Below the pieces are notes generated by a model. It did not search any database. It was not told the origin of the DNA and saw only the letters and a program-made list of their open reading frames with translations. A stretch of 64,000 bases of DNA from contig JAUIJE010000012.1 of NCBI GenBank assembly GCA_030431455.1, forward strand, positions 62,001-126,000, written 5' to 3'. Origin of the DNA: a bacterium. GTDB lineage: Bacteria; Myxococcota; UBA727; JAUIJE01. Shown one piece after another: positions 5,211 through 51,955 of this stretch. The position numbers were made by a program, and so were the translations under genes. The first letter of the stretch is position 1. The number at the start of each line of letters is the position of its first letter.

Positions 5211-6892
5211 CCGTCACCGGCACGCCCTTTTTTGTGCCGTCGGGCGCCGATGCGCTGTTCGTGTTTCATCACGCGCCCGCGTCGCCCACCGGGCACGCGG
5301 TGGTGTTGTGTCCCCCCGCGTTTTGGCAATACATGCGGTCACATTGGGCGATGCGGCGGACGGCGCAGGCGTTGGCCGCCGCCGGTCTCGACGTGCTGCG
5401 CCTGGACTACCGGGGGACCGGCGACGCGGGCGGCGCGTGGGGGGCGTTGCGTTTTCAAGACTGGGTCGACGACGTGGTGCGCGCCGCGGACGTGATCAAG
5501 GCCCGCTCGGGGGCGCGGCGGCTGTCCTTCGTGGGGCTCGGGCTCGGGGGGATGGTCGCGGCCCGCGCCGCCGAACAGCAGCGGGTGCGGGAGCTGGTGT
5601 TGTGGGACCCGGTGGTGCGCGGCGATGTCTACACCGAGGACCTGCGCGCCGAGGAAAAGGCCTTCGCCGCGCGCCTGGTGTACGCGCCGCCGGTGGCGGA
5701 GACGGGCGCGATCAAACAGAACGTGGGCATCGCGGTGGGGCCCCAGATCTGGAATGACATTGTGCAGCAGAGCCTGCTCGAGCGGTTCGCGCCCCAAGCC
5801 TCGCGGGTGCACCTGGTGCGCACCGACACCGTGCCCCCCGCGCGGAAGGCCCCGCTCGCGCAGCTGGAGGCCAAGCTGCACGACGAGGTCAAACGCTTCG
5901 TGGTGCACCGCGCGCCCGAGCCACCGAGCACCGGCGAGCAATGGCTCGTGCAGCACAGCCCCCGGGTGGTGACCGAAGCGGTCACCGGGCAGGCCCCGTC
6001 GACCTCGCCGGACGAGGCGGTGCTGCGCGCGGCCGACGACGCGGACGCGCCGCTGCGCGCCGACACCCGCCGGGCGGTGGTGTTCGGCCCGGGGCCCGGG
6101 CTGTGTGGGGTGGTGCAGACCCCGGCGGCGCCGTGGCGGTCCACCGCGGTGGTGCTGTCCAATGTGGGGCTCAACCACCGGGTGGGGCCGAGCCGGGCGT
6201 GGGTGGAGCTCGCCGAGCGGCTGGGGGCGGCGGGCTTTGTCTCGCTGCGGTTCGACACCGCGGGGCTGGGCGACAGCCCCCCGCGCGCGGACGACGAGGA
6301 CGACGACATCGAACGGGCCCGGGCCGACCTCGACCACGCGGTGCGCCAACTGGGTGATTTTGGCATTCACAAAGTTGTCGTCGTATCGAACTGTTCGGGC
6401 ACCGAGCCCACCCACGCCCTGATGTTGTCCCAACCCGCGGCCCGGGGCGCGGTGTTCATCGATGGCTACGTGCCCCGCATCCGGCGACACCAAGCGATGC
6501 GTTGGGCGCGGCGGGCGCTCAAGCCCGGGATGTGGACCCAACGGGCCAAGCGCTGGTTCCCCGACCGGTTCGGGCTCGATGCCCGCCGGGTGCGCTGGTT
6601 TCGCGCCGCCGACCACGAGACGGTGTTTGTGCGGGAGGAGCCGACCATCGCGTCGCTGGCCGCGGACTACCAGCGCATGACCGCGCGGGGGGCGCGGCTG
6701 TTGTTCGTGTACTCGGGCGAATCTGGGTATAGCTACCGCCGCCTGTGGCGCCACGCCTACGGGGTGGACGGCGCGGGCTTGATCGAGGTCGAGCGCATCA
6801 AGGAGGCCGACCACACGTTCTCGTTCCCCCGGGCCCGGGCCCGCTTGATCGAGCACGTGGTGCGGTTCGTGCGCACCGTCGACGAGGCTTGA
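5207..6892 (+). CDS. Tandem alpha/beta-hydrolase-fold protein of the PKS/NRPS operon
   Basis: The 561 residues form two alpha/beta-hydrolase-like halves, about 20-230 and 285-560, resembling the hydrolases found beside acyl-transfer and exosortase-type loci. In the first half the nucleophile elbow reads GLGLGG (residues 110-115), so the usual Ser is replaced by Gly. In the second it reads SNCSG (394-398), with Cys 396 in the nucleophile position and Ser 397 beside it. A late Asp-His pair (ADHTF) could complete a triad in the second half. The gene starts with GTG overlapping the NRPS stop (GTGA), so the two are translationally coupled. Because the NRPS module has no thioesterase, product release or editing is a reasonable guess for the second half, but the degenerate motifs make this uncertain. 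Confidence 0.75.
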   Translation: MTVTGTPFFVPSGADALFVFHHAPASPTGHAVVLCPPAFWQYMRSHWAMRRTAQALAAAGLDVLRLDYRGTGDAGGAWGALRFQDWVDDVVRAADVIKARSGARRLSFVGLGLGGMVAARAAEQQRVRELVLWDPVVRGDVYTEDLRAEEKAFAARLVYAPPVAETGAIKQNVGIAVGPQIWNDIVQQSLLERFAPQASRVHLVRTDTVPPARKAPLAQLEAKLHDEVKRFVVHRAPEPPSTGEQWLVQHSPRVVTEAVTGQAPSTSPDEAVLRAADDADAPLRADTRRAVVFGPGPGLCGVVQTPAAPWRSTAVVLSNVGLNHRVGPSRAWVELAERLGAAGFVSLRFDTAGLGDSPPRADDEDDDIERARADLDHAVRQLGDFGIHKVVVVSNCSGTEPTHALMLSQPAARGAVFIDGYVPRIRRHQAMRWARRALKPGMWTQRAKRWFPDRFGLDARRVRWFRAADHETVFVREEPTIASLAADYQRMTARGARLLFVYSGESGYSYRRLWRHAYGVDGAGLIEVERIKEADHTFSFPRARARLIEHVVRFVRTVDEA

Positions 6893-6895
6893 GCG

Positions 6896-7399
6896 TCAGA
6901 TCGGGCCTTGGGCCCCGGGGGCCTGTTTGAGCTCGGCGATGTCCGCGGCCAGCCCGGCGGCGAAGGCGGCGTCTTTGCCCAAGACCGCGGCGATGTGTTC
7001 GCAGGCTTGGTCGACAGACTTGAACACTTCGTTTTTCATCGAGCCGCGGCCGAGCAACTCGACCGCGCTGATCGCGCTGCGGGCGAGCGCGCCCATAAAC
7101 CCCGTGCGCTCGACGAGGGTGCCGTTGCCCCGCAGCAAGGCCACGTTGGCGTCGCGGATGTCGGCAGCGGCCCGTTTGGTGGCGTCGTCGAGGGCGAGGC
7201 CGATGTCGTCGCCGAGCACGCTGAGGTTGTAGGCGCCCCCCGCGAGCCCCTCGAGCCAGGCGCGTTGGGCATCGCAGAAAGCGTAGAGCCCATCCGGGGT
7301 CGGCTGGGCGTGCCACAAGCAGATCAGCACCGGCCCGTCGGCCGCGGCCGCGTACAGGGAGGCGTCTTCATAGATCAGACGGGTCCGCTCGAGCTTCAT
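6896..7399 (-). CDS. Hypothetical cytoplasmic protein, possibly STAS/SpoIIAA-like
   Basis: The 167-residue protein has no signal peptide or membrane segment. It has alternating hydrophobic strands in the first half (RTRLIYED, GPVLICLWH) and an alpha-helical C-terminus ending VFKSVDQACEHIAAVLG. That ending resembles the tail of STAS-like single-domain proteins common in myxobacteria, but the match is weak. Two in-frame ATG codons (7411 and 7399) are possible starts and neither has a clear ribosome site; I chose the second because the MKLERTRL start looks more typical. It lies 33 bases downstream of the peptidoglycan-binding-like gene on the same strand, so the two may be cotranscribed. It converges on the hydrolase gene with only three bases between the stops. 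Confidence 0.6.
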   Translation of the reverse strand: MKLERTRLIYEDASLYAAAADGPVLICLWHAQPTPDGLYAFCDAQRAWLEGLAGGAYNLSVLGDDIGLALDDATKRAAADIRDANVALLRGNGTLVERTGFMGALARSAISAVELLGRGSMKNEVFKSVDQACEHIAAVLGKDAAFAAGLAADIAELKQAPGAQGPI

Positions 7400-41006: not shown

Positions 41007-42293
41007 CTACCGCACCGGGGGCGCGCCTGTCACAGGCGGGGGCCGGGGCCACACCGCGTCCATCGGCTCGTCGAGGGCACACAGGTTGACGTCCTTCATC
41101 AGCGGGACCGCGCGGCGGCCGTTGTGCGCGACCCGGGCATCCACGCGCACGTCGGCGGCACCGGACGCGGCCTCGGGAACCCGGCGGCACAGGCGGTGCG
41201 CGTACTCCAGCAACATGTCGGGCTGAAAGCCCATCTGGCGCGCCTGCAGCGCGGTGAGGTCGCGCACCGGGAGGGGGTGGCGCACGCCCTGCTCGTCGAC
41301 CCGCGCGAACGTCACGTCGGCGCGTTTTTCGTTGAGCATCACCCGCCAGGAAAAGCGGTAACCCTGTTCGTGCCAGTTCACGTCGCCCTCGTGCAGCACA
41401 AAGCGCCAGGGCAACAAAAGCTGCACCAGGATGTGCACCCCGAACACAACCGTGCGCCAGCGCCCCCCGGGGGGCGCGGCCGCCGCGAGGGGGGGCTCAC
41501 CGACGGGCAACAGCAGCGTCGCGGCCAGGACCATGACAAAGCTGAACAGCCCAATGGGGAACAGCAGGCCCACGGTGGCGTGAAAGCCGACGCACACCAC
41601 CAACGCCGCGCGCGCGGTGGGCCGCCACAAAAGCCAGATCCAAATCGTGAGGTCAAACAGCGCGCCGCCCCAGCTCATCAACACCGGGACCATGTCCGCG
41701 GCCAGCAGCGGCCCCACCCCCGGCGTGAACCGAAACCCCCACAGCCACGAGGCCAACGGCTCGCCGTCGACGAGCCAGTCGCGGTTGAGCTTCCACAACC
41801 CGGCGTAGAAGTACACCAGGGCCACCTGGGCCCGGAACGCCCAGAGCTCCCACCGGGGCACGGTCGCGCCCCCGCGGTCGCGCCACCGCACGGTGGCCAC
41901 GCTCGACAACGCGAGCATCGCCACCAGGATCGAGACCAGGTAGTAGTGGTTCAGGTACAGGGTCTTGTCGACGAGCTCGGCATAGGTGAACAGCACCCCG
42001 TAGCCGGCCAGGCACCAGCGCCCGAAGCGCCCATGAGCAAAGCCGAGGGCCAGCCCCGCCATCGCCAGGTAACAGAGGCTCATCCACGGCGGGGGCAAAG
42101 GGCGCACCCAGCCAAAGCCCTGATAATGAAACTGCACAGTCGGGGCGAGCAGCAGGTCGTCGACCCAGCCGTAAGCCCAAAACCGGACCGCGGCGATGGC
42201 GAGCAGGACCCCGAGGCCGACGCGAAACAGGACCAGGCGCCGGGCGGGCACGGGCTCGTCGAGCCGCGCCCACGACCCGCGGTCAATCGGCAT
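41007..42293 (-). CDS. HTTM-domain (vitamin K-dependent gamma-carboxylase-like) membrane protein
   Basis: The 428-residue protein has about eight membrane segments, starting VLFRVGLGVLLAIAAVRF. It carries the HTTM pattern: FHYQGFGWVRPLP in the first loop, ALVYFYAGLWKLNRDWL in the middle, and the late GYRFSWRVMLNEK. This fold is related to the integral-membrane vitamin K gamma-glutamyl carboxylase. In bacteria HTTM genes are frequently linked to imelysin-type lipoprotein genes, as here. Its bacterial reaction is not established. The first ten bases overlap the end of the preceding imelysin-like gene, showing tight operon packing. Confidence 0.88.
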   Translation of the reverse strand: MPIDRGSWARLDEPVPARRLVLFRVGLGVLLAIAAVRFWAYGWVDDLLLAPTVQFHYQGFGWVRPLPPPWMSLCYLAMAGLALGFAHGRFGRWCLAGYGVLFTYAELVDKTLYLNHYYLVSILVAMLALSSVATVRWRDRGGATVPRWELWAFRAQVALVYFYAGLWKLNRDWLVDGEPLASWLWGFRFTPGVGPLLAADMVPVLMSWGGALFDLTIWIWLLWRPTARAALVVCVGFHATVGLLFPIGLFSFVMVLAATLLLPVGEPPLAAAAPPGGRWRTVVFGVHILVQLLLPWRFVLHEGDVNWHEQGYRFSWRVMLNEKRADVTFARVDEQGVRHPLPVRDLTALQARQMGFQPDMLLEYAHRLCRRVPEAASGAADVRVDARVAHNGRRAVPLMKDVNLCALDEPMDAVWPRPPPVTGAPPVR

Positions 42294-43389
42294 CGGAGTC
42301 GGTGAAGCTCACGGTCAGGCCGAGCCCGCCCATGATGTCGGCGCGGACCAGGGTGGCCAGGCCCCGCAGGGCCTCCACGTAGAGGTTCACGTCGTCGAGG
42401 TCGTTCTCCAACGCTTGCTCGAGGGTGCCGTCGAGGTTGGCCCGGGTGGCATCGATGTCCGCGAACACCGATTCGATATTTGCGGAAGCATCGCTGTTGC
42501 GGGTCTCCCACAGGGCGTCCACCCCGGTCTCCATCCGGTCGCTGGTCAGCAGCACCTGGCGGGCGGCGTCCACGGTGGCGTCCACCGATGCCAAGGACAG
42601 CCCCGCGGCCCGGGCCTCGAGTTTGTCCAGGGCGAGGGCCCCGCTGGGGGCTTCGCCGATGGGGGCCTCGACGTTCTCTTCGCGCACGAGCTGGGCCGCG
42701 TCGAGGATGTTCTGCAGCAGGTGGGTCAACACCGCGATGTCGTCGTCCAGGTCCATGATTTGACCGGGGTCGGTCAGGCCGGTGACGTAGGCCGGGTCGT
42801 CGTCGAAGAAGCCCTTGCGCCACTGGCCGGCCAAGAACGCCACGTCGGCGGCGGCGGCTTGGGCGTAGGCGCACCCGGCATCGTAGGCCCCCTGGTCCAT
42901 GGTCGGGTCCCGCAGGTGTTCGTAGAGCACCCAGCCGAGACCGGGGTAGCCGCGCTGGTCGGCCCCGAGGTCCTGCATGCCCGCCGCGTCGGGGGCGGCG
43001 TCGATGGCGAGCTCGATGCGCGCCGGGTCCACCGGCCAAGAGTCGGCCTTGACCGCGATCCGGTAGGGCTGCTCGTCGAAGGGGCCGAACCGCGCGATGG
43101 TCAGGCGCTTGTACGCGGTGAAGGCCCGGCGGTACGCGGCGTCGATGTCAGCCTGGGCCTCCAGCTCATAGCCGGCCGGGCTCAACCCCTCGCAGGCGGT
43201 GACCGCGGTCGCCAATGCGTCTGCTTCGGTGCGCCAGGTCGCGGTGGCCGGCTCCAGGTAGTCGTCGACGTAGGCGTGGACAAAATCCGTGAGCAGCTGG
43301 GCTTCGCCGTTGCCGTCTCCGGTCCCGGCCGAACACCCCACGAGTCCGACGAGCCCCGCCCAGGCCCAGGTCTTGCCCCACGCGCTCAC
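42283..43389 (-). CDS. Imelysin-like lipoprotein (second copy)
   Basis: The 368-residue protein has a lipobox (LVGLVGC), and the mature part is almost entirely helical, as in imelysin/IrpA proteins of peptidase family M75. In place of the GxHxxE signature it has RGYPGLGWVLYEHL. The His is missing, as is common in the second imelysin gene that follows a di-haem oxidoreductase gene. Imelysins are periplasmic or surface proteins of iron uptake rather than proven peptidases. The GTG start overlaps the upstream stop by four bases (GTGA), so translation is coupled. Confidence 0.85.
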   Translation of the reverse strand: MSAWGKTWAWAGLVGLVGCSAGTGDGNGEAQLLTDFVHAYVDDYLEPATATWRTEADALATAVTACEGLSPAGYELEAQADIDAAYRRAFTAYKRLTIARFGPFDEQPYRIAVKADSWPVDPARIELAIDAAPDAAGMQDLGADQRGYPGLGWVLYEHLRDPTMDQGAYDAGCAYAQAAAADVAFLAGQWRKGFFDDDPAYVTGLTDPGQIMDLDDDIAVLTHLLQNILDAAQLVREENVEAPIGEAPSGALALDKLEARAAGLSLASVDATVDAARQVLLTSDRMETGVDALWETRNSDASANIESVFADIDATRANLDGTLEQALENDLDDVNLYVEALRGLATLVRADIMGGLGLTVSFTDSDAD

Positions 43390-44828
43390 AGCGACTCCAC
43401 AAACGACACCAGCCGGGCGCGTTGTTCGGCCGTGAGCTGGGCAAAGTTGTCCCGGGCGGCGCGGGCTTCGCCCCCATGCCACAGGATGGCTTCTTCGACC
43501 CCGTCGGCCCGGCCGTCGTGAAGCAAGCGCATGTGGCCGTTGACCCCGGGGAGCGCGGACAGGCCCCACAGCGGCGGGGTGCGCCACTCGTTGCCGGACG
43601 CGGAGAAGGTGGGGCGGTGGTCGCTCAGGTCATCGCCCATGTCGTGCAGCAGCAGGTCGGTGTAGGGCCAAATCCGCTGGTCCTGGGCCGCGCTGATGTC
43701 GTGGGCTCCGGTCGTCACCTGCGGAACGTGACACCCGGTGCACCCCACTTCGTAAAAGTGACGCCGCCCCTCGAGGATCTCCTCGCTGCTCCAGGTCTCC
43801 CGGGCGGGGGGCGCGCACAAGCTGGCGTAGGTCGCGACCCGGTTGAACACGTGATCGCTCACGTCTGGCTCGTCCTCTGACTGGGCCTCGAGGCAGGGAC
43901 CTTGGGCCGACGTGCAATCGTCCCCCGGCCGCACGTAGGAGGTCAGCCCCATGTCTCCCGCAAATGCCCCTGCGTTCTGATCGCGCACCGACGGCTGCTC
44001 GGCCTTCCAGCCAAACCGCCCGACCTGCATCTCACCGTGCTCCGCGCTCCACACCCGGGCCACCCGGCCGGAGATGCCGTCGCCGTCCTCGTCGTCGGGG
44101 TCCGCCCACTGTTCGAGCTGGGCCTCGGGGATGGCCTCCAACAGGGCCAAGCCGATCACCGCGGGGGCGACCCGGGGGGACATCGCCACCGGCTCGTCGA
44201 CGTCACCGTAGCCGGTGAAGGCCAATTCGTAGCGAGGCGCCTTGAGCACCACCCGTTGGCCGTCGGCGTAGGCAAAGGGTTGGTTTTCGTATTCGATGGT
44301 CACGGTGCCCTCCGCGGGCACGTCGCCCGCGGCGAGGTTTTGCAGTTGGCCGCCGTACACCGCGTGGGCCTCGGGCGCGCCGTGGGTGGTGGTGCGGCCC
44401 GTCGACAGGCGCACCAAAAACCCCGTCACCTCCTCGTCGCCCACCGGGGGCCGGCCCCGTCCGTCACGCAGGTGGCAGGCGGCGCAGGACCGCGCGTTGA
44501 ACAGCGGGCCGAGCCCGTCCCGGGCGGAGGTCGACGAGACGCCCTGCACCCACGCGGAGGTGAAAAACGAGTTGCCCGAATAGAACGCGTCTTCGTCGTC
44601 GCGGTCGGCGTTTTCGTAGGGTTGCGAGTAGGCGAGGTTGCCGAGGGTGAAGGTGTTGGTCGCGTCCCCGCCCGGCAGCCACTCGGACTCGTCGAGCTCC
44701 GGCACCCCGGGCAGGCAGCCCGCGCCCAGCCCCGCGGCCAACGCCCAAGACAAAAGGAGCCGCCCCGCCGGGACGAAGCCCGGCGGAGCGTGGAGTGTGG
44801 AAGCAGAAGCACGAACCAATGCAGTCAC
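43386..44828 (-). CDS. Di-haem oxidoreductase (DUF1111/DHOR) lipoprotein
   Basis: The 480-residue protein starts at a GTG behind GGGGGAGG (an ATG 14 codons upstream is less likely), followed by a signal with lipobox ALAAGLGAGC. Two c-type haem motifs are visible: CAACH at residues 115-119 and CTGCH at 363-367. The surrounding DGLGPLFNARSC and DLLLHDMGDDLSDHRP are typical of the DHOR family, distant relatives of bacterial cytochrome c peroxidases. DHOR genes commonly sit between two imelysin genes in iron-responsive operons, the arrangement seen here; a role in redox handling of iron or its ligands is inferred. Confidence 0.93.
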   Translation of the reverse strand: MTALVRASASTLHAPPGFVPAGRLLLSWALAAGLGAGCLPGVPELDESEWLPGGDATNTFTLGNLAYSQPYENADRDDEDAFYSGNSFFTSAWVQGVSSTSARDGLGPLFNARSCAACHLRDGRGRPPVGDEEVTGFLVRLSTGRTTTHGAPEAHAVYGGQLQNLAAGDVPAEGTVTIEYENQPFAYADGQRVVLKAPRYELAFTGYGDVDEPVAMSPRVAPAVIGLALLEAIPEAQLEQWADPDDEDGDGISGRVARVWSAEHGEMQVGRFGWKAEQPSVRDQNAGAFAGDMGLTSYVRPGDDCTSAQGPCLEAQSEDEPDVSDHVFNRVATYASLCAPPARETWSSEEILEGRRHFYEVGCTGCHVPQVTTGAHDISAAQDQRIWPYTDLLLHDMGDDLSDHRPTFSASGNEWRTPPLWGLSALPGVNGHMRLLHDGRADGVEEAILWHGGEARAARDNFAQLTAEQRARLVSFVESL

Positions 44829-44859
44829 ATGTCCTCCCCCGCCGCGGGACGCGGCGCGG

Positions 44860-46044
44860 TCAGAATTCACGCGGCGGAACGTCGAGCCCCGCCGCCCGGA
44901 ACGCGTCCTCGAGGAGGTCGCGCACGATGAAGAGTTGATCGATCAGGGTTTGCACCGCGGCGTTGCCGGCGTCGTTGCCCGAGGCGATGGCTTGATCAAA
45001 GGGCACGGGGAGCGCGTTGGCGTCGGCCAGCGCTTGATCGATGGCTTGGTTGATGTCGGTGGCCAAGCCCTCGTCGAGGGCGGTGATCACGTCCTTGACG
45101 CCGTCACCGGACACCCCGTCGTAGCTCCCCCGCCACACGTTCTGGATGCCCTGGATGTCTTGGATCATGTCCCGGTGGGTGTTGTCCGAAAAGCACGAGT
45201 GCTCTTCTTCTTGATCGTGGTTGTCGAGGGCGGGCTTCAGGCGCTCGCTGCCGGTCTCGAACCCGGCGAGCACGATCATGCCGATCATGATGCGCTCCAG
45301 CTGCACCTCGGGGGCGGCGGCGACAAAGTCGACCGCGTAGGTGTCCCCGGTGGGTTGCCAGGCGTCGACGAGGTGTTGGAGATGGCCCACGAGCATGGCG
45401 CTGACCGTCTCCAGGTACAACCGGCGTCGATCCGCGTTGGCGCCGGTGCCCACGATGTAGTCGTCGACCGGGCGATCGCCGGGGCCGTCGCTGGCGGTGT
45501 CTTGGCCCCAGAGCAAGAACTCGATCGCGTGGTAGCCGGTGGCGATGTTCGCTTCGCCCCCTTGCTCGTTGAGGCTCTCGAGGGTGGCGGCGTCGATGGT
45601 GTCGGTGCCCGCGATGATGCTGCCCGCGCCGTCGGGGGTGTCGAGGGTATAGTCGATGTAGTTCTCGTCGAGGGGCCAGGCGTTGATGAAGCCCTCGGGC
45701 CCGGTCTCTTCGTCGTCGATGGGGCCTTCGTAGAAACGAAACACCTCGGTCTGCAGGTAGGGCTCGCGGGCGGCGCGCCAGGCGTCCTTGGCGGTGGCGA
45801 GATTCGCCGCCGTGGGGTCGGCGAGGAACGTGGTGATCGCGCCGTCGAGGTCTTGGGCCGCGGCCAATGTGTCTTCGTAGTTGGCGAGCACGATGTCGGC
45901 GTAGGTCTGGGCGACATCGCCGACGTTGTCAGGCAACTCGACATCGGGACCGGCGTCGGCGCCGCCGTCATCGGTGGACGGGCAGGCCAGCGCGAGGCCG
46001 AGGGAACAGAGGGCAAACGACGTGCGAACAACGCGGAACAGCAT
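44860..46044 (-). CDS. Imelysin (IrpA-type) lipoprotein, first gene of iron-regulated operon
   Basis: The 394-residue helical lipoprotein has a lipobox (LGLALAC) and an Asp/Gly-rich linker. The imelysin signature GxHxxE is present as GYHAIEFLLWG, with His 172 and Glu 175. WPLDENYIDYTL and a second half with FSDNTHRDMIQDIQGI are also typical of IrpA-like proteins. Iron-regulated members are needed for growth at low iron in cyanobacteria, but the ligand is unknown. The ATG at 46044 has a GGAG site. A Fur box at 46065-46085 lies 20 bases upstream, and three or four genes follow in tight order. Confidence 0.93.
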   Translation of the reverse strand: MLFRVVRTSFALCSLGLALACPSTDDGGADAGPDVELPDNVGDVAQTYADIVLANYEDTLAAAQDLDGAITTFLADPTAANLATAKDAWRAAREPYLQTEVFRFYEGPIDDEETGPEGFINAWPLDENYIDYTLDTPDGAGSIIAGTDTIDAATLESLNEQGGEANIATGYHAIEFLLWGQDTASDGPGDRPVDDYIVGTGANADRRRLYLETVSAMLVGHLQHLVDAWQPTGDTYAVDFVAAAPEVQLERIMIGMIVLAGFETGSERLKPALDNHDQEEEHSCFSDNTHRDMIQDIQGIQNVWRGSYDGVSGDGVKDVITALDEGLATDINQAIDQALADANALPVPFDQAIASGNDAGNAAVQTLIDQLFIVRDLLEDAFRAAGLDVPPREF

Positions 46045-46064: not shown

Positions 46065-46085
46065 TGATTATTATTCTCATTTTCA
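46065..46085 (-). promoter_or_regulatory. Fur box in front of the imelysin-DHOR operon
   Basis: The plus-strand core GATTATTATTCTCATTTTC (46066-46084) is the reverse complement of a 19-base Fur site; on the minus strand it matches GATAATGATAATCATTATC at 15 of 19 positions. It overlaps the probable promoter of the operon, as expected for iron-dependent repression. It stands out as AT-rich in GC-rich surroundings. Confidence 0.82.
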
Positions 46086-46144: not shown

Positions 46145-46759
46145 CTAAGTACTTTGAATGGTTGGGCTTTCAAGAAGGTCGGCGGCGAGCTCGAGCCGGG
46201 TCGCGCGGCGGAGGGGCTGCACCGCGGTCAACCGGGGCCCGAGCAACAAAAGCGCGGCGGGGGCCCCCGCGCACAGCGCCCGCCGGGCCGCGGGGTCGAG
46301 GGAGAACCGGAGGTATTTCACCGGGTCGGCGGGGTCGACGTCGGGATGGACGTGAGCGAGGTGGTGGCGCCGGCCGACCCGCAGGGCCACCCCCACGCGC
46401 CCGTCGTGCAGGCCGGCGACGAGGCGGTCGCCGGTGGCGCGACAATCTGATTGCACAAACAGCGTGGCGGTCAGCTCGCCCGGGTTCGCCGACAACGGAG
46501 CATAGGCGGCGAACTCGTGCGCGATCCGTGCCGCGGTGGGGCGTCCGCCGGTCTCGATGTGCAGCACCTCTTGGATTTGGAACAGCACCGTCTGGGCATT
46601 TTCAAACAAAACAGTGCAATGCGGTCCCACCGGGACCCGGCGGCGTTGTTTGCGCGCGGCCATGGCCGCGGTCCAGGTGGGGCGGATCGCGCCGTACAGG
46701 CTGGGGTCGACCAGGAGCGACGGGTGCAGGGGGCGGGGCGAAGGGAGCGAACGGCCCAT
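46145..46759 (-). CDS. DUF3501 family protein
   Basis: The 204-residue cytoplasmic protein has the DUF3501 hallmarks: the basic RKQRRRVPVGPHCTVLFENA, then TVLFQIQEVLHIE, and a C-terminal half with VKYLRFSLD. The family is usually linked to ferredoxin/rubrerythrin-type or iron-sulfur genes and has no proven reaction. The ATG at 46759 overlaps the upstream stop by one base (TGATG) and a GGAG lies inside that gene. It is the last gene of the second Fur-box operon. Upstream in-frame residues are Arg/Pro-rich noise from an overlapping gene. Confidence 0.82.
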   Translation of the reverse strand: MGRSLPSPRPLHPSLLVDPSLYGAIRPTWTAAMAARKQRRRVPVGPHCTVLFENAQTVLFQIQEVLHIETGGRPTAARIAHEFAAYAPLSANPGELTATLFVQSDCRATGDRLVAGLHDGRVGVALRVGRRHHLAHVHPDVDPADPVKYLRFSLDPAARRALCAGAPAALLLLGPRLTAVQPLRRATRLELAADLLESPTIQST

Positions 46760-47187
46760 CAGACGATCTCCGGGGTGAGGGGCAAGCACCGCGGCGATGA
46801 CCGGCGGGGGGCGCGCGGCGCGGAAAGCAGGCGGGCCCATGAGGCGAGGGCGGGCAAGCCGACGTCGTGGGCGAGGCGCACGAGCTCGTCGGCGAGGGGC
46901 CAGGTGGGGACCCGCTCCCGCCGGCCGAGGATGGGGAAAAGCTCCCACGCGCCGCCGGTGAGCGGGGACGGGGTCAGCACCGACAGCCCCACCGCAGCTT
47001 GCCACAGTTGCGCAGGCTCCACGCCCGCGCCGCACAGCCGGCGCCCCAGGGGGCAGCGCGGGTCGGCCCGACGCAGCTCCCAGCCAGCGCCCAGGGGCTG
47101 CACGGGGCGACGCCACCGGGGATCGTGCAACGCGATGTGGCTGGTCTGTCCCGGCGCGAAGGGGGAGGCGGTCACGGGTGTCCACAT
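46759..47187 (-). CDS. Unrecognised 142-residue protein of the second iron-regulated operon
   Basis: The protein has no signal peptide or membrane segment and is rich in Trp, Pro and Arg. It begins MWTPVTASPFAPGQ, has two Cys residues (DPRCPLGRRLCGAG), and ends with a helical region (WPLADELVRLAHDVGLPALA) and an Arg-rich tail. I do not recognise a family. Both of its ends are translationally coupled: its ATG overlaps the stop of the Cys-rich small gene and its stop overlaps the DUF3501 ATG, each as TGATG. That coupling supports it being real and expressed with its neighbours under Fur control. Confidence 0.7.
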   Translation of the reverse strand: MWTPVTASPFAPGQTSHIALHDPRWRRPVQPLGAGWELRRADPRCPLGRRLCGAGVEPAQLWQAAVGLSVLTPSPLTGGAWELFPILGRRERVPTWPLADELVRLAHDVGLPALASWARLLSAPRAPRRSSPRCLPLTPEIV

Positions 47188-47411
47188 CACGCTTCGCCCA
47201 CCGGCCCGAACAGGGGGCGGAGGTCGGCGGTCTGCACCAAGTTCTTCACCGCAAAGTCGATGGCCTCGGCGAAGCCACAGAAGGACGTCTGGTCGAAGTG
47301 CAAGGTGGTCCGCCCCACGGTGACGCAGATGTCGCCGCAACTGCAGCGCTGCACCCGGGCGTGGGCGGTGGCGGACAAGAAACGTTTTTGATGGCAGGGG
47401 CCGGCGGTCAT
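47187..47411 (-). CDS. Cys-rich 74-residue protein, first gene of the second iron-regulated operon
   Basis: The small cytoplasmic protein has Cys residues at 6, 23, 25, 29 and 45 within MTAGPCHQKRF, QRCSCGDICVTVG and TSFCGFAEAIDF. The layout (a CxCG turn, a short strand pair TVGRTTLHFD, then a helix) recalls small Cys-containing proteins such as DUF6686, but the match is loose. Five Cys and the position behind a strong Fur box (47446-47466) suggest metal binding; this is inference. The ATG at 47411 has an AAGGAG site. Its stop overlaps the next ATG. Confidence 0.78.
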   Translation of the reverse strand: MTAGPCHQKRFLSATAHARVQRCSCGDICVTVGRTTLHFDQTSFCGFAEAIDFAVKNLVQTADLRPLFGPVGEA

Positions 47412-47713
47412 CGATCGCTCCTTGAGAAGGTGGTCGGGATCGTTTTGAAAACGATAATCATAATCAACATCATTTTGCAAACCAGAAACGAGCGCCTGGA
47501 TCCGCCGTGGCCGGTGGACGTGGTCGCTGTCCCCCCGGGGCCAAGACACAATGCTGCTGCAGAATGACTGTGCGGGCAGACCCCGGGGCGCGGCGGGGGG
47601 GCGCCGTCTCGTGCGGTCGCCGTGACCGCGGCCACGGGCGGGCGTGGATCGACGCCGGACACCCGGCGGGTCGGACCCGAAACTTCACGCCCCCACACAC
47701 CGCAGGAGCGTGC
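47412..47713. other. Divergent intergenic region with Fur box
   Basis: The 302-base region separates the second iron-regulated operon from the lipase-like gene. It holds the Fur box at 47446-47466. The half next to the lipase-like gene has an AGGAG ribosome site but no promoter I can identify. I see no further gene. Confidence 0.6.
47446..47466 (-). promoter_or_regulatory. Fur box in front of the DUF3501 operon
   Basis: The plus-strand core GAAAACGATAATCATAATC (47447-47465) matches GATAATGATAATCATTATC at 16 of 19 positions, and the flanking T and A extend the symmetry. It lies 35 bases upstream of the ATG at 47411. This is the stronger of the two Fur boxes. Confidence 0.87.
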
Positions 47714-48865
47714 ATGAAGGTCCCCCCCGCCCCGGTTCGCACCACCCCCAATCGCCCGGAAACAATCAGCAATTCGCCCGATACGGCCGTCGCCGACACC
47801 GGCCGCGCGGGACAGACCGCCCGCGCCCCCGCCGGGGATGGGCTCGAGACCTCCCGGGCCACCGCGGCCAGCTTGCGGGCCCCCACCGCGGCCGAGAGCG
47901 GCGCCCGGGATGGCGTCACCCGCACCGGCGACCCCACCGGGGCCCTCGAAAGCCAGCTGCTCTCCGCCCGCACCCGCTCGGCGCCCCCCCAAGCCAAAGG
48001 CGGGGGGGACGAGGCCCCGGCCCGCCGGCGTCCCTCGGTGACCGACACCGTCGACGAAGCGCTCCAGAGCTGGGATCGCGCGGAGGCCGAAGGCCGCACC
48101 ACCCCGGCCCCCCACCGGGAAAACTACTTCGACGACGTCGACGACGTCGCCCCGGTCTACTCCGAGCGCGACGAGCAGGCCACGATCGGCGGCGCCAACC
48201 GCCCCGGCCACCTGGTGCCCGAAGTGGGCGGCGAACCTGGCGCGGGCATGCGCGTGACCATCCACGGCATCAACGACTCCCCCGAGGGGGTTCAAGCCCT
48301 GACCGATCACGCCGCCGGCACCGACCAAGCGGTGAGCAGCTTCCACTACGACGACCAGCGCCGCCGCCTCACCGACAGCTCCCAGGACATGGCCCGCGAG
48401 CTCGGCACCTGGCTCGACGAGCACCCCGGCGAGCCGCTCACCATCGACGCCCACTCCATGGGGTCACGCGTCAGCCTTCAAGCCCTGTCCCAACTCCAAC
48501 GGGAGGGCCGGCTGGAGGGCCACCAGGTCGAGCTCAACATGGTCGCCCCGCCGCTCACCGGCTACGACCGGGCCAACGGGGCCGCGAACGCGCCCGACGT
48601 CCTCAATGGCATTGCCGGCCTCCAGCCCGGCCGGGACATGGGGTCGGAGTCGGATTTCCAGCACGACCTGGAGGCCATCCGCTTCGACGACAACGTGCGG
48701 GTGCGGGTGTTCACCGGGGGCCGGGACGACATCGTCGACAGCTCCACCCCGGAGTTCCGGGAGATGACCCGTCACCTGGGCGCGGAGGTGATTGAGCTCC
48801 CGGACGCCACCCACACCTCGGCGCCGCGGCGCGCGGCGGAGTGGCTCGAAGCCCACCCCGACTGA
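47714..48865 (+). CDS. Lipase/esterase-like alpha/beta-hydrolase with disordered N-terminus
   Basis: In the 383-residue protein the first 130 or so residues are low-complexity (Ala, Pro, Thr, Arg), without signal peptide. The hydrolase domain follows: RVTIHGINDSPEGVQAL, then the nucleophile elbow DAHSMGSRVSLQAL with Ser 248 in AHSMG, an Asp region (VFTGGRDDIVD) and a final His in PDATHTSAP. The triad therefore looks complete. ATG at 47714 with an AGGAG site. A strong intrinsic terminator at 48928-48952 ends its transcript, so it is a single-gene unit. The substrate is unknown; export would need a non-classical route. Confidence 0.82.
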   Translation: MKVPPAPVRTTPNRPETISNSPDTAVADTGRAGQTARAPAGDGLETSRATAASLRAPTAAESGARDGVTRTGDPTGALESQLLSARTRSAPPQAKGGGDEAPARRRPSVTDTVDEALQSWDRAEAEGRTTPAPHRENYFDDVDDVAPVYSERDEQATIGGANRPGHLVPEVGGEPGAGMRVTIHGINDSPEGVQALTDHAAGTDQAVSSFHYDDQRRRLTDSSQDMARELGTWLDEHPGEPLTIDAHSMGSRVSLQALSQLQREGRLEGHQVELNMVAPPLTGYDRANGAANAPDVLNGIAGLQPGRDMGSESDFQHDLEAIRFDDNVRVRVFTGGRDDIVDSSTPEFREMTRHLGAEVIELPDATHTSAPRRAAEWLEAHPD

Positions 48866-49063: not shown

Positions 49064-49444
49064 ATGGAGATCGTTCACTCGTTCCGATTGATCAAAGACC
49101 GGCCCCCGCGCATCCGGATCAGCGCGCGTGGGGCGGTGCGGGCGTCGCGGTTGCAGCTCGCCACCGTCGAGGACATCTCCGAGGCCGGCCTGTACGTCTC
49201 CTGCGCGTCCCCCCTGCCGGTGGGCACCGAGCTGACAGTGTTCTTCGACATGCCCACCGAGACCGGGTACGAACGCATCTGGGTCCGGTCCACCGTCCGC
49301 CACCGCCAGAAGAAACACGGCTCGACCGGGGGCATGGGGTTGCGCTTTCTGCGGCTCGAGTTTGACCACGCGGAGATGATTCGCGCGTTTGTCCGGCGGC
49401 ACGACCCCCGCACCGTGCAGGTCGAGCTCCAGCTCGCGGCTTAG
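49064..49444 (+). CDS. PilZ-domain protein (cyclic di-GMP binding)
   Basis: The 126-residue single-domain PilZ protein carries the Arg-rich PPRIRIS start (RxxxR region) and the DISEAGLYVS motif (D-x-S-x-x-G), which together bind cyclic di-GMP in this family. GGMGLRFLRL follows. Stand-alone PilZ proteins act as second-messenger adaptors on motility, secretion or development. It converges on a second PilZ gene, and the two coding ends overlap by four bases. Confidence 0.88.
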   Translation: MEIVHSFRLIKDRPPRIRISARGAVRASRLQLATVEDISEAGLYVSCASPLPVGTELTVFFDMPTETGYERIWVRSTVRHRQKKHGSTGGMGLRFLRLEFDHAEMIRAFVRRHDPRTVQVELQLAA

Positions 49445-50487
49445 CTCTCGTCGAGGCCGGGCTCGGTGTCGGCGAGGGTGTGGCTCTCGTCGATCTCCCG
49501 CGCGATGTCGAGCAACAAGAACGCCCCCGACCCGGACAGGGTGCTCGCCCGCGCCACGTCCTGCACCACAAACCGAAACGTCCCGTCCTCGGCCGCGAAC
49601 ATCTCGCGCAGCGCGTCGCGGGGGGCGGCCAGTCCGTCGCAGACCGCGTCCACCGGTTCGCCCTGGCGCACGTAGATTCGGCCGGTGCCGAACGGGCCCT
49701 CGGCCTCGACCACCCCGGTGAGTTTTTCGGAGTTCAAAAATGTGAACAGCGTGGGGAGCCGGACCCGCGAGAGGTTGCCGGACAGCACCGTCTCGGCGGA
49801 GAACAGCGCGTCGTCGTCGGCGCCGGGCTGGACCAGCTTGGCCAACAAACCGTCCATGGCCCGGGAGATGTCCTCGCCTTCGGCCTCGGGGTGACCGAGC
49901 TGCACCTCGACGGAAAATCGCGGCCCGGCCGGGGTGTCGGCCAGGCGGGTGGTGCGCTGGACCGTGCCCATGACCACAAACGGCTCCTTGGCGTCGAGGC
50001 TGAGCTTGACCTGGGTCCCGCGTTCGGCCGGCCAGTTGGATTGGAGCTGGACGCTGTACACCCGGCGCTCAAACCCGGAGGGCACCGGGGCGTCCGGGCC
50101 CACGGGCTTGCCGTCGGCGCTCTCGATGGCTTGGGCGTTGGCTTGGGCGGCGAATTTGACGAAGCGTTTGATCGCGGCGCGCACGTCGTCGTCATCGGGG
50201 AAAAACTCGAACGCCAACCCTTCGGTGCGATCGCCGGCCCACAAGTCCTTGGACTCCACCACCCGGACCAGCACCGCCAGGGTGCTGATCATCATCTTGC
50301 CGCTGGGGTCCGACAGCTCGATGCGCTCCACCGCGCCCGGGGGCGCGGGCATCTTCTGGCATTCGAAGAACAGCCCGGCCTCACTGACATTGCCGCGCCG
50401 CAGCGATGGCTTCTTCTCGAGCCCGACGATGCGGACCCGAAACTGCCACCCCACCCGGTGGGCTCGTCGACGATTGCTCCCCTCCAT
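49441..50487 (-). CDS. PilZ-DUF4388 protein
   Basis: The 348-residue protein starts with a PilZ domain (basic NRRRAHRVGWQFRVR, then GNVSEAGLFF). A second PilZ-like region lies near 150-230 (ERRVYSVQLQSNWP, RFSVEVQLG). The C-terminal DUF4388 domain (LPTLFTFLNSEKLTGVVEAE and GEPVDAVCDG) is a myxobacterial hallmark often found in regulatory proteins. It probably reads cyclic di-GMP and relays it by protein contact. The ATG at 50487 is divergent from the CreD-like gene; a perfect 18-base palindrome lies between them. Confidence 0.87.
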   Translation of the reverse strand: MEGSNRRRAHRVGWQFRVRIVGLEKKPSLRRGNVSEAGLFFECQKMPAPPGAVERIELSDPSGKMMISTLAVLVRVVESKDLWAGDRTEGLAFEFFPDDDDVRAAIKRFVKFAAQANAQAIESADGKPVGPDAPVPSGFERRVYSVQLQSNWPAERGTQVKLSLDAKEPFVVMGTVQRTTRLADTPAGPRFSVEVQLGHPEAEGEDISRAMDGLLAKLVQPGADDDALFSAETVLSGNLSRVRLPTLFTFLNSEKLTGVVEAEGPFGTGRIYVRQGEPVDAVCDGLAAPRDALREMFAAEDGTFRFVVQDVARASTLSGSGAFLLLDIAREIDESHTLADTEPGLDES

Positions 50488-50555
50488 GTCGGCAGTGTAC
50501 GCGCAATCGCAGTGCGTCACGAGCGCAAACGACAAGGCCCGCGGACACACCCCAC

Positions 50556-50573
50556 CGTGTCCGCGCGGACACG
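50556..50573. promoter_or_regulatory. Perfect palindrome in divergent promoter region, probable operator
   Basis: CGTGTCCGCGCGGACACG is a complete 18-base palindrome. A third copy of the half-site, GCGGACAC, lies at 50541-50548, so the region reads as overlapping inverted repeats. It is placed between the PilZ-DUF4388 gene and the CreD-like gene and could control either or both. Confidence 0.6.
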
Positions 50574-50662
50574 GCATCAGCGGACCGCGACCGCCCGGGC
50601 GGCGGCACGCGCCGGCACGTGCCTTGCGTACCCGAACCCCGAACCTCTGTCTGCGAGCACCC

Positions 50663-51955
50663 ATGACCCCGACCCGACTCATCGCCATTGGCCTCATCTT
50701 CGGCTGCACCTCCATCGCGTGGGCCATCCTCGGCGGCACCGTCGTCAGCCGCACCGGCGAGAGCGACCACGGCCTGCGCCAAGAGGTCGAGTCTCTGTGG
50801 GGGCGCCCCCAGGAACAACGCGCCCCGACCGTCGACGCGGTATCCACCATTTCCGAGAAAAAGGAGATCCAGGAGACCGACCGGCGGGGGAACGAACACA
50901 CCCGCATCGAGACCGTCGACAAGGAGGTGTTCACCCCGATCCCCCTCGCGTCTTCCAACATCGATGTGCAGCTCGACCTCGAGCACCGCAAGAAGGGGTT
51001 GATGTGGTTTTCCACGTACGTGGTCGACTTCCGCGCGACCTACGCGTTCAAGAACGTCAGCGGCATGTTGCAGCCGGTGCGCATCGGCTTTTCTCTGCCC
51101 GAGCACGACGCGGTCTACGACGGCTTTGTGTTCCGCATCGATGGCCAGCCCGTGTCGTCGCAGGGTGACCTCGCCCAGGGCATCGAATCCCGCCTCACCG
51201 TGGCCCCCGGGGAGACCAAGACCATCGAGGTCGCCTACAAGTCCCGCGGTCTGTCACGGTGGACCTACGTGCTGGGCCAGGGGGTGCAACGCGCGGAGAA
51301 CTTCTCCCTCGTGTCCCACACCAACTTCGACGACGTGGACTTTGCCCCCGGCTCCATCTCCCCCACCACCCGGGGGGCGGGGACCCAGACCTGGACGTTC
51401 GATTCCTTGGTCACGGGCAAACGCATCGAGATCGTGCTTCCCGAAAAGCTGAACCCCGGACCGTTGGTGTCGCGCATCGCGTTCTTCGCCCCGGTGTCGC
51501 TGCTGTTCTTCTTCACCATCATGGTCATCCTCGGCATGGTCCGCCGGCAAAACCTCCACCCCATGAACTACTTCTTTCTCGCGGGCGCGTTCTTCGCGTT
51601 TCACTTGCTGCTCGCCTACCTCGTCGACCACATGAGCATCCACGTGGCGTTCGCCATCGCGTCGGCCACCAGCGTGTTCTTGGTGGTGAGCTACCTGCGG
51701 CTGGTGGCGGGCAACGCAGTGGCATTTTTGCAGGCCGGGCTCGCCCAGTTGGTGTTCCTGGTGATGTTCTCCTACAGCTTCTTTTTCGAAGGAAGCGCGG
51801 GGCTGTCCGGGGCCATCGGCTCGGTGATCACGCTGTTTGTGCTCATGCAGGTCACGGCCAAGGTGGACTGGTCCGCGGCGATGGGGGACAAGCCGGGCCA
51901 TCGTCCGTCGGGGCTGCCGTTGCCGGTGCCCGGGCTGCACCCCGATGAGGGTTGA
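50663..51955 (+). CDS. CreD-family inner membrane protein
   Basis: The 430-residue protein has one N-terminal membrane segment (LIAIGLIFGCTSIAWAILGG), a large periplasmic beta-rich domain (about 85-270), and a C-terminal bundle of about six helices. The order HPMNYFFLAGAFFAFHLLLA, YLVDHMSIHVAF, then FSYSFFFEGS and MQVTAKVDW is the CreD signature. CreD is a target of two-component envelope-stress control in enterobacteria and is linked to beta-lactam response; no CreBC genes are nearby here. ATG at 50663 without strong ribosome site. It converges on the M1-peptidase gene, three bases apart. Confidence 0.82.
   Translation: MTPTRLIAIGLIFGCTSIAWAILGGTVVSRTGESDHGLRQEVESLWGRPQEQRAPTVDAVSTISEKKEIQETDRRGNEHTRIETVDKEVFTPIPLASSNIDVQLDLEHRKKGLMWFSTYVVDFRATYAFKNVSGMLQPVRIGFSLPEHDAVYDGFVFRIDGQPVSSQGDLAQGIESRLTVAPGETKTIEVAYKSRGLSRWTYVLGQGVQRAENFSLVSHTNFDDVDFAPGSISPTTRGAGTQTWTFDSLVTGKRIEIVLPEKLNPGPLVSRIAFFAPVSLLFFFTIMVILGMVRRQNLHPMNYFFLAGAFFAFHLLLAYLVDHMSIHVAFAIASATSVFLVVSYLRLVAGNAVAFLQAGLAQLVFLVMFSYSFFFEGSAGLSGAIGSVITLFVLMQVTAKVDWSAAMGDKPGHRPSGLPLPVPGLHPDEG

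Follow-up and report, generated by a model that had tools for sequence, protein, structure and literature searches.

A small cysteine-containing protein of a myxobacterial family in a probable Fur-controlled operon with a DUF3501 gene

Gene organization and putative Fur boxes

In the window (the whole stretch of 64,000 nucleotides analyzed here), three frames lie on the minus strand at 46145-47411 and are transcribed in the order P1-P2-DUF3501. P1 (47187-47411, minus strand) encodes 74 residues with five cysteines and belongs to a Myxococcota family that has no name and shows remote homology to DUF6686 (PF20391), P2 (46759-47187, minus strand) encodes a coding-like frame of 142 residues with no Pfam or NCBIfam match, and DUF3501 (PF12007; 46145-46759, minus strand) encodes 204 residues with a Pfam E value of 1.3e-29. 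As noted in the initial annotation, the three genes are joined by two successive TGATG overlaps; at both junctions, P1/P2 and P2/DUF3501, the A is common to the stop and the start codon. The five cysteines within 45 residues of P1 reported there are also present, at positions 6, 23, 25, 29, and 45, as is the Fur box ahead of P1. This box, GATGTTGATTATGATTATC (47453-47471, minus strand), matches the classical consensus at 15 of 19 positions and lies 41 nt before the P1 ATG, which has a Shine-Dalgarno sequence (AAGGAG) directly 5' of it. A score of 15/19 was reached by 0 of 200 shuffles and by 0.2% of the sequence windows taken from the rest of the source. With the downstream imelysin, di-heme oxidoreductase (DHOR), and HTTM genes as the training set for codon statistics, the coding scores per codon were 0.37 for P1, 0.21 for P2, and 0.26 for DUF3501, against -0.02 or less for 13 known-false ORFs; all three frames thus look coding. 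The arrangement as a whole exceeds what chance would produce.

The neighboring operon, also on the minus strand, begins with an imelysin (Peptidase_M75) gene at 44860-46044, followed by the DHOR gene (43386-44870), a second imelysin gene (42283-43587; its start is uncertain, and the listed ORF overlaps DHOR), and a gene for an HTTM/vitamin K gamma-carboxylase-like membrane protein (41007-42293). A second putative Fur box, GAAAATGAGAATAATAATC (46066-46084, minus strand), likewise matches at 15 of 19 positions and is located 21 nt before the imelysin start. Since this second box stands ahead of imelysin, P1-P2-DUF3501 and imelysin-DHOR-imelysin-HTTM are probably two Fur-controlled units, for which we infer Fur binding from the consensus matches. 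The imelysin-DHOR-imelysin run is comparable to the Fur-regulated imelysin-DHOR-type operon PA4370-PA4373 (PMC3143127), from which the window differs by the added HTTM/vitamin K gamma-carboxylase-like protein and by the P1-P2-DUF3501 operon in front.

The P1 family and its kinship to DUF6686

The P1 sequence alone identified no relative among 97 genomes, and a 12-kb stretch from one of those genomes later proved to hold a P1-like gene. In a genome of the same order (G002), a P1-like gene immediately follows a Fur box and has imelysin as its next downstream gene, with neither P2 nor DUF3501, and in a Polyangia MAG (L149) the gene row is P1-DUF3501-AhpC, divergent from imelysin. Only a profile made from these three members (window, G002, and L149) opened the family: in a search directed at Myxococcota, with few genomes outside, it matched 78 of 193 Myxococcota genomes (E ≤ 0.01). 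A 42-member profile built without the window recovered the window P1 at an E value of 1.5e-12, the next best ORF of the window reaching 0.6, and the recovery persisted (8.9e-13) when the same-order, L149, and L119 members were also removed. P1, which had been described as unrecognized, is still unnamed, as no Pfam or NCBIfam model covers the family, but it is a member of a widespread myxobacterial family of predicted iron-starvation genes.

The proteins of this family are small, have no signal peptide, and typically carry an N-terminal cysteine followed by a CxC or CxxC pair, in the typical pattern C..(V/I)LA..P.A.V.RCSCGxIHLxxGPVTLR. The window P1 has Cys6 and a CxC spacing; CxxC is found in some relatives (L199, L205, L208, and L210), and several members are without one cysteine. 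The second cysteine of the pair is missing in 4 of 26 aligned members (CADGH, CAGGH, CPNQ, and SCAG), and the N-terminal cysteine is missing in several. An obligatory metal or cluster site in P1 is therefore doubtful, because the cysteines are common but not invariant.

Next to P1, the most frequent neighbor was a heme oxygenase gene. It occurred in 27 of the 30 loci that scored best, but these do not represent 27 independent events because the genomes are closely related. In Myxococcaceae and their kin, as seen in seven loci read closely, the heme oxygenase (PF01126) gene begins inside the end of P1, and Pfam confirmed its identity in three of the seven (E values from 1e-28 to 3e-19). The P1-heme oxygenase pair is carried by many myxobacteria, which makes a knockout practical. 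P1 lies beside imelysin or DHOR in the window, G002, L196, and L209, precedes a response regulator in L205, and precedes a membrane-like protein in L199; in L119, a weak relative without the cysteine pair follows HTTM. The L199 neighbor (6281-7345, plus strand) is a 354-residue protein with hydrophobic stretches and no Pfam match, whose gene overlaps the end of P1. Candidate Fur boxes matching at least 13 of 19 positions within 250 nt upstream were found ahead of 18 of 30 P1 genes versus 2% of background windows, in a consensus match using one box form only; the count of 18 is approximate because some starts are rough (L194, L226, L227, and L232 have no start codon at the given coordinate).

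A more distant relationship was suggested by profile comparison. In HHalign, the P1 alignment matched an alignment of 16 members of DUF6686, a domain of unknown function of Bacteroidota, with a probability of 96.2 and an E value of 2.5e-9 over 50 columns, whereas none of ten column-shuffled controls exceeded 7.2%, and the probability was below 1% for two unrelated alignments. At the PF20391 gathering cut-off, neither P1 nor any of 26 family members matched. The N-terminal cysteine, the cysteine pair, the next hairpin, and the start of the helix align between the two, and the alignment stops at template position 53 of 115, so it covers the N-terminal half of DUF6686 only; P1 lacks the C-terminal half of about 50 residues, and the window P1 has the CxC spacing. 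The settings are also alike, as several DUF6686 members adjoin HemS/ChuX, PepSY, CbiX, or TonB-receptor genes: among 26 DUF6686 loci of 3 kb each, a TonB-receptor plug was encoded in only 9, PepSY in 5, and HemS in only 2, with CbiX also present. P1, on the other hand, occurs in Myxococcota and beside heme oxygenase or imelysin. Judged from these alignments, P1 is a Myxococcota branch of a superfamily that also contains the Bacteroidota DUF6686, by remote homology, and the DUF6686 neighborhoods favor a heme or iron role without proving one.

P2 and the DUF3501 copy

The two small frames differ in their conservation, P1 being a conserved family and P2 nearly an orphan. As described above, P2 matched no named family in Pfam or NCBIfam, and a search of 97 relatives returned only P2 itself and one short match of 28 residues. 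The initial annotation could liken P2 to nothing it knew; one probable relative exists in a Kofleriaceae MAG (L252), of similar length and colinear over about 115 residues. The comparison gave a z value of 12.4 over shuffles, and we call the relative probable rather than proven because decoys selected by the search also score high (z of 9 to 10). The L252 gene starts 4 nt after a 13/19 Fur-box match, and the gene that follows, which is truncated, overlaps it by ATGA. Going by these searches, P2 is close to unique to the source genome.

The window DUF3501 protein scored 104 bits against a Pfam gathering cut-off of 25, and its predicted fold matches PDB entry 3fjv_A (TM 0.82, E value of 8.9e-17, 29% identity), a solved relative that is itself a protein of unknown function. 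DUF3501 is reported almost always with rubrerythrin and the Fe-S oxidoreductase RFO (PMC5114695). The window protein passes the score for DUF3501 and so resembles that module, but its neighbors are P1, P2, and imelysin rather than RFO or rubrerythrin. Used as a direct probe of genome contigs, it gave no match; a canonical DUF3501 is found beside RFO on another contig of the source genome. This canonical copy is not preceded by a Fur box, unlike the window copy.

Divergent DUF3501 copies lie beside an AhpC/TSA protein in Paraliomyxa, Plesiocystis, L149, and two further genomes, with the AhpC/TSA identity Pfam-checked for L149 and assigned by evident sequence resemblance in the others. In a tree, the window DUF3501 groups with three of these peroxiredoxin-linked copies (support 87/79), with the RFO-linked copy of the source genome outside, which gives moderate support to its membership in a peroxiredoxin-linked clade. 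Fur-box matches reached 12 to 15 of 19 positions at the peroxiredoxin-linked loci, compared with 9 of 19 at the RFO gene. A search of the source genome for an L149-type peroxiredoxin gave no match, an empty answer that carries little weight. Because a near-constant association with rubrerythrin and RFO has been reported (PMC5114695), this clade is a departure: here DUF3501 is linked to peroxiredoxin and stands behind Fur boxes, away from the rubrerythrin module with which the literature connects it almost exclusively. Fur-like boxes were observed at the AhpC/TSA-linked divergent DUF3501 loci L035, L036, L149, L246, and L247.

Proposed role of the operon

We consider the chances about even that P1-P2-DUF3501 is an iron-starvation operon in which P1 serves as a heme or iron accessory protein, HemP-like by analogy. 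Under iron scarcity, Fur would switch on this short operon, located just before the separately Fur-boxed imelysin-DHOR-imelysin-HTTM iron-uptake operon. P1 could then bind heme or iron, or sense either through its cysteine residues, and might work in a HemP/HmuP/ChuP-like way to assist heme degradation or help uptake genes to be expressed. Its usual partner in Myxococcaceae and kin is heme oxygenase, and in the window it is DUF3501, whose clade is otherwise paired with an AhpC/TSA peroxiredoxin; this partner suggests that the operon may add peroxide protection in iron-starved cells. The analogy draws on ChuP, a small heme-binding regulator of the HemP/HmuP family encoded in a Fur-controlled operon (PMC9131926). 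Like these proteins (PMC9131926), P1 is small and would be the product of the first gene of a Fur-controlled heme/iron operon, but it is cysteine-rich, and no P1 sequence matched the HemP/HmuP models of Pfam and NCBIfam, so the likeness is one of analogy only. This proposal builds on computed results, namely, the layout of the operon, its Fur-box matches, the family of P1 with its link to DUF6686, and the heme-oxygenase and peroxiredoxin neighbors; from these we infer that P1 binds a ligand and acts like HemP, and that the three products may contact one another. The interpretation in the initial annotation is supported in part: Fur control and an iron or heme role are backed for P1 by the conservation of its family, the Fur boxes that recur ahead of its members, the heme oxygenase partner, and the kinship to DUF6686. 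The proposal gives a testable role to P1, a gene that about 40% of the Myxococcota genomes sampled carry, and to DUF6686.

A broader version of this proposal is also possible, although we place it somewhat short of even: P1 and the Bacteroidota DUF6686 would be two branches of an overlooked superfamily of small cysteine proteins of Fur-regulon and heme operons, a functional counterpart of HemP/HmuP outside Proteobacteria. Such proteins would have heme or iron as a ligand and would link the uptake of heme to its breakdown, joined in the window to a peroxide-defense DUF3501.

The three genes might instead form a loose collection, with P1 and DUF3501 each belonging independently to the Fur regulon and sharing a transcript by chance and P2 as a minor, fast-evolving or recently born gene. 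The neighbors of P1 vary widely (heme oxygenase, DHOR, response regulator, and membrane protein), and P2 has no more than one relative and the lowest coding score of the three. We nevertheless regard a chance collection as somewhat unlikely: the pairing in L149 again joins P1 to a DUF3501 of the peroxiredoxin type, and the overlap of stop and start codons suggests that coupled translation is under selection.

The predicted fold of P1 raises another alternative, namely, that P1 has a PC4/PUR-like fold and binds nucleic acid as a regulator, acting on the mRNA or promoters of iron-uptake genes, and carries neither heme nor metal. The AlphaFold2 model has a confident core (pLDDT > 90) with a beta-beta-beta-beta-alpha arrangement of four strands and one helix. 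The top rows in VIA-align were PUR-alpha (3nm7_D; Z 5.5, rmsd 2.1 over 58), followed by PC4 homologues (5a4n_A; Z 4.9, rmsd 1.8 over 49), all of them single-stranded nucleic-acid binders, and HemP/HmuP, alike in gene position, have been described as transcriptional or post-transcriptional activators (PMC9131926). However, Z values of about 5 are also reached by common arrangements in such searches, Foldseek returned no match below an E value of 0.1, and the P1 alignment shows no evident conserved basic surface. The modeled resemblance may thus reflect a common arrangement only and is a weak lead, and we consider a nucleic-acid-binding role unlikely. Searching PDB sequences with the P1 profile gave nothing convincing.

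The initial annotation proposed a three-protein complex or pathway dealing with iron or iron-sulfur clusters. A version in which P1 binds zinc or an iron-sulfur cluster and joins DUF3501 and P2 in a complex that handles iron-sulfur accords with the five cysteines of the window P1, the translational coupling, and the company that canonical DUF3501 keeps with the Fe-S oxidoreductase and rubrerythrin (PMC5114695), the source-genome copy beside the oxidoreductase included. It seems quite improbable given that conservation of the three genes together is not supported, the window DUF3501 falls in the other, peroxiredoxin-linked clade, and the P1 cysteines are not invariant. Of the loci found, only L149 also has P1 beside DUF3501, and it has no P2; the same-order genome carries P1 with neither partner, and P2 has one probable relative.

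Beyond the two operons, a DUF900-type alpha/beta hydrolase gene (47714-48865, plus strand) is divergent from P1, and a PilZ protein and a PilZ-DUF4388 protein are encoded on opposite strands at 49064-51015. We also observed, elsewhere in the source genome (L082, contig C21, 5794-8338, plus strand), a second imelysin-like gene with an HTTM gene directly after it.
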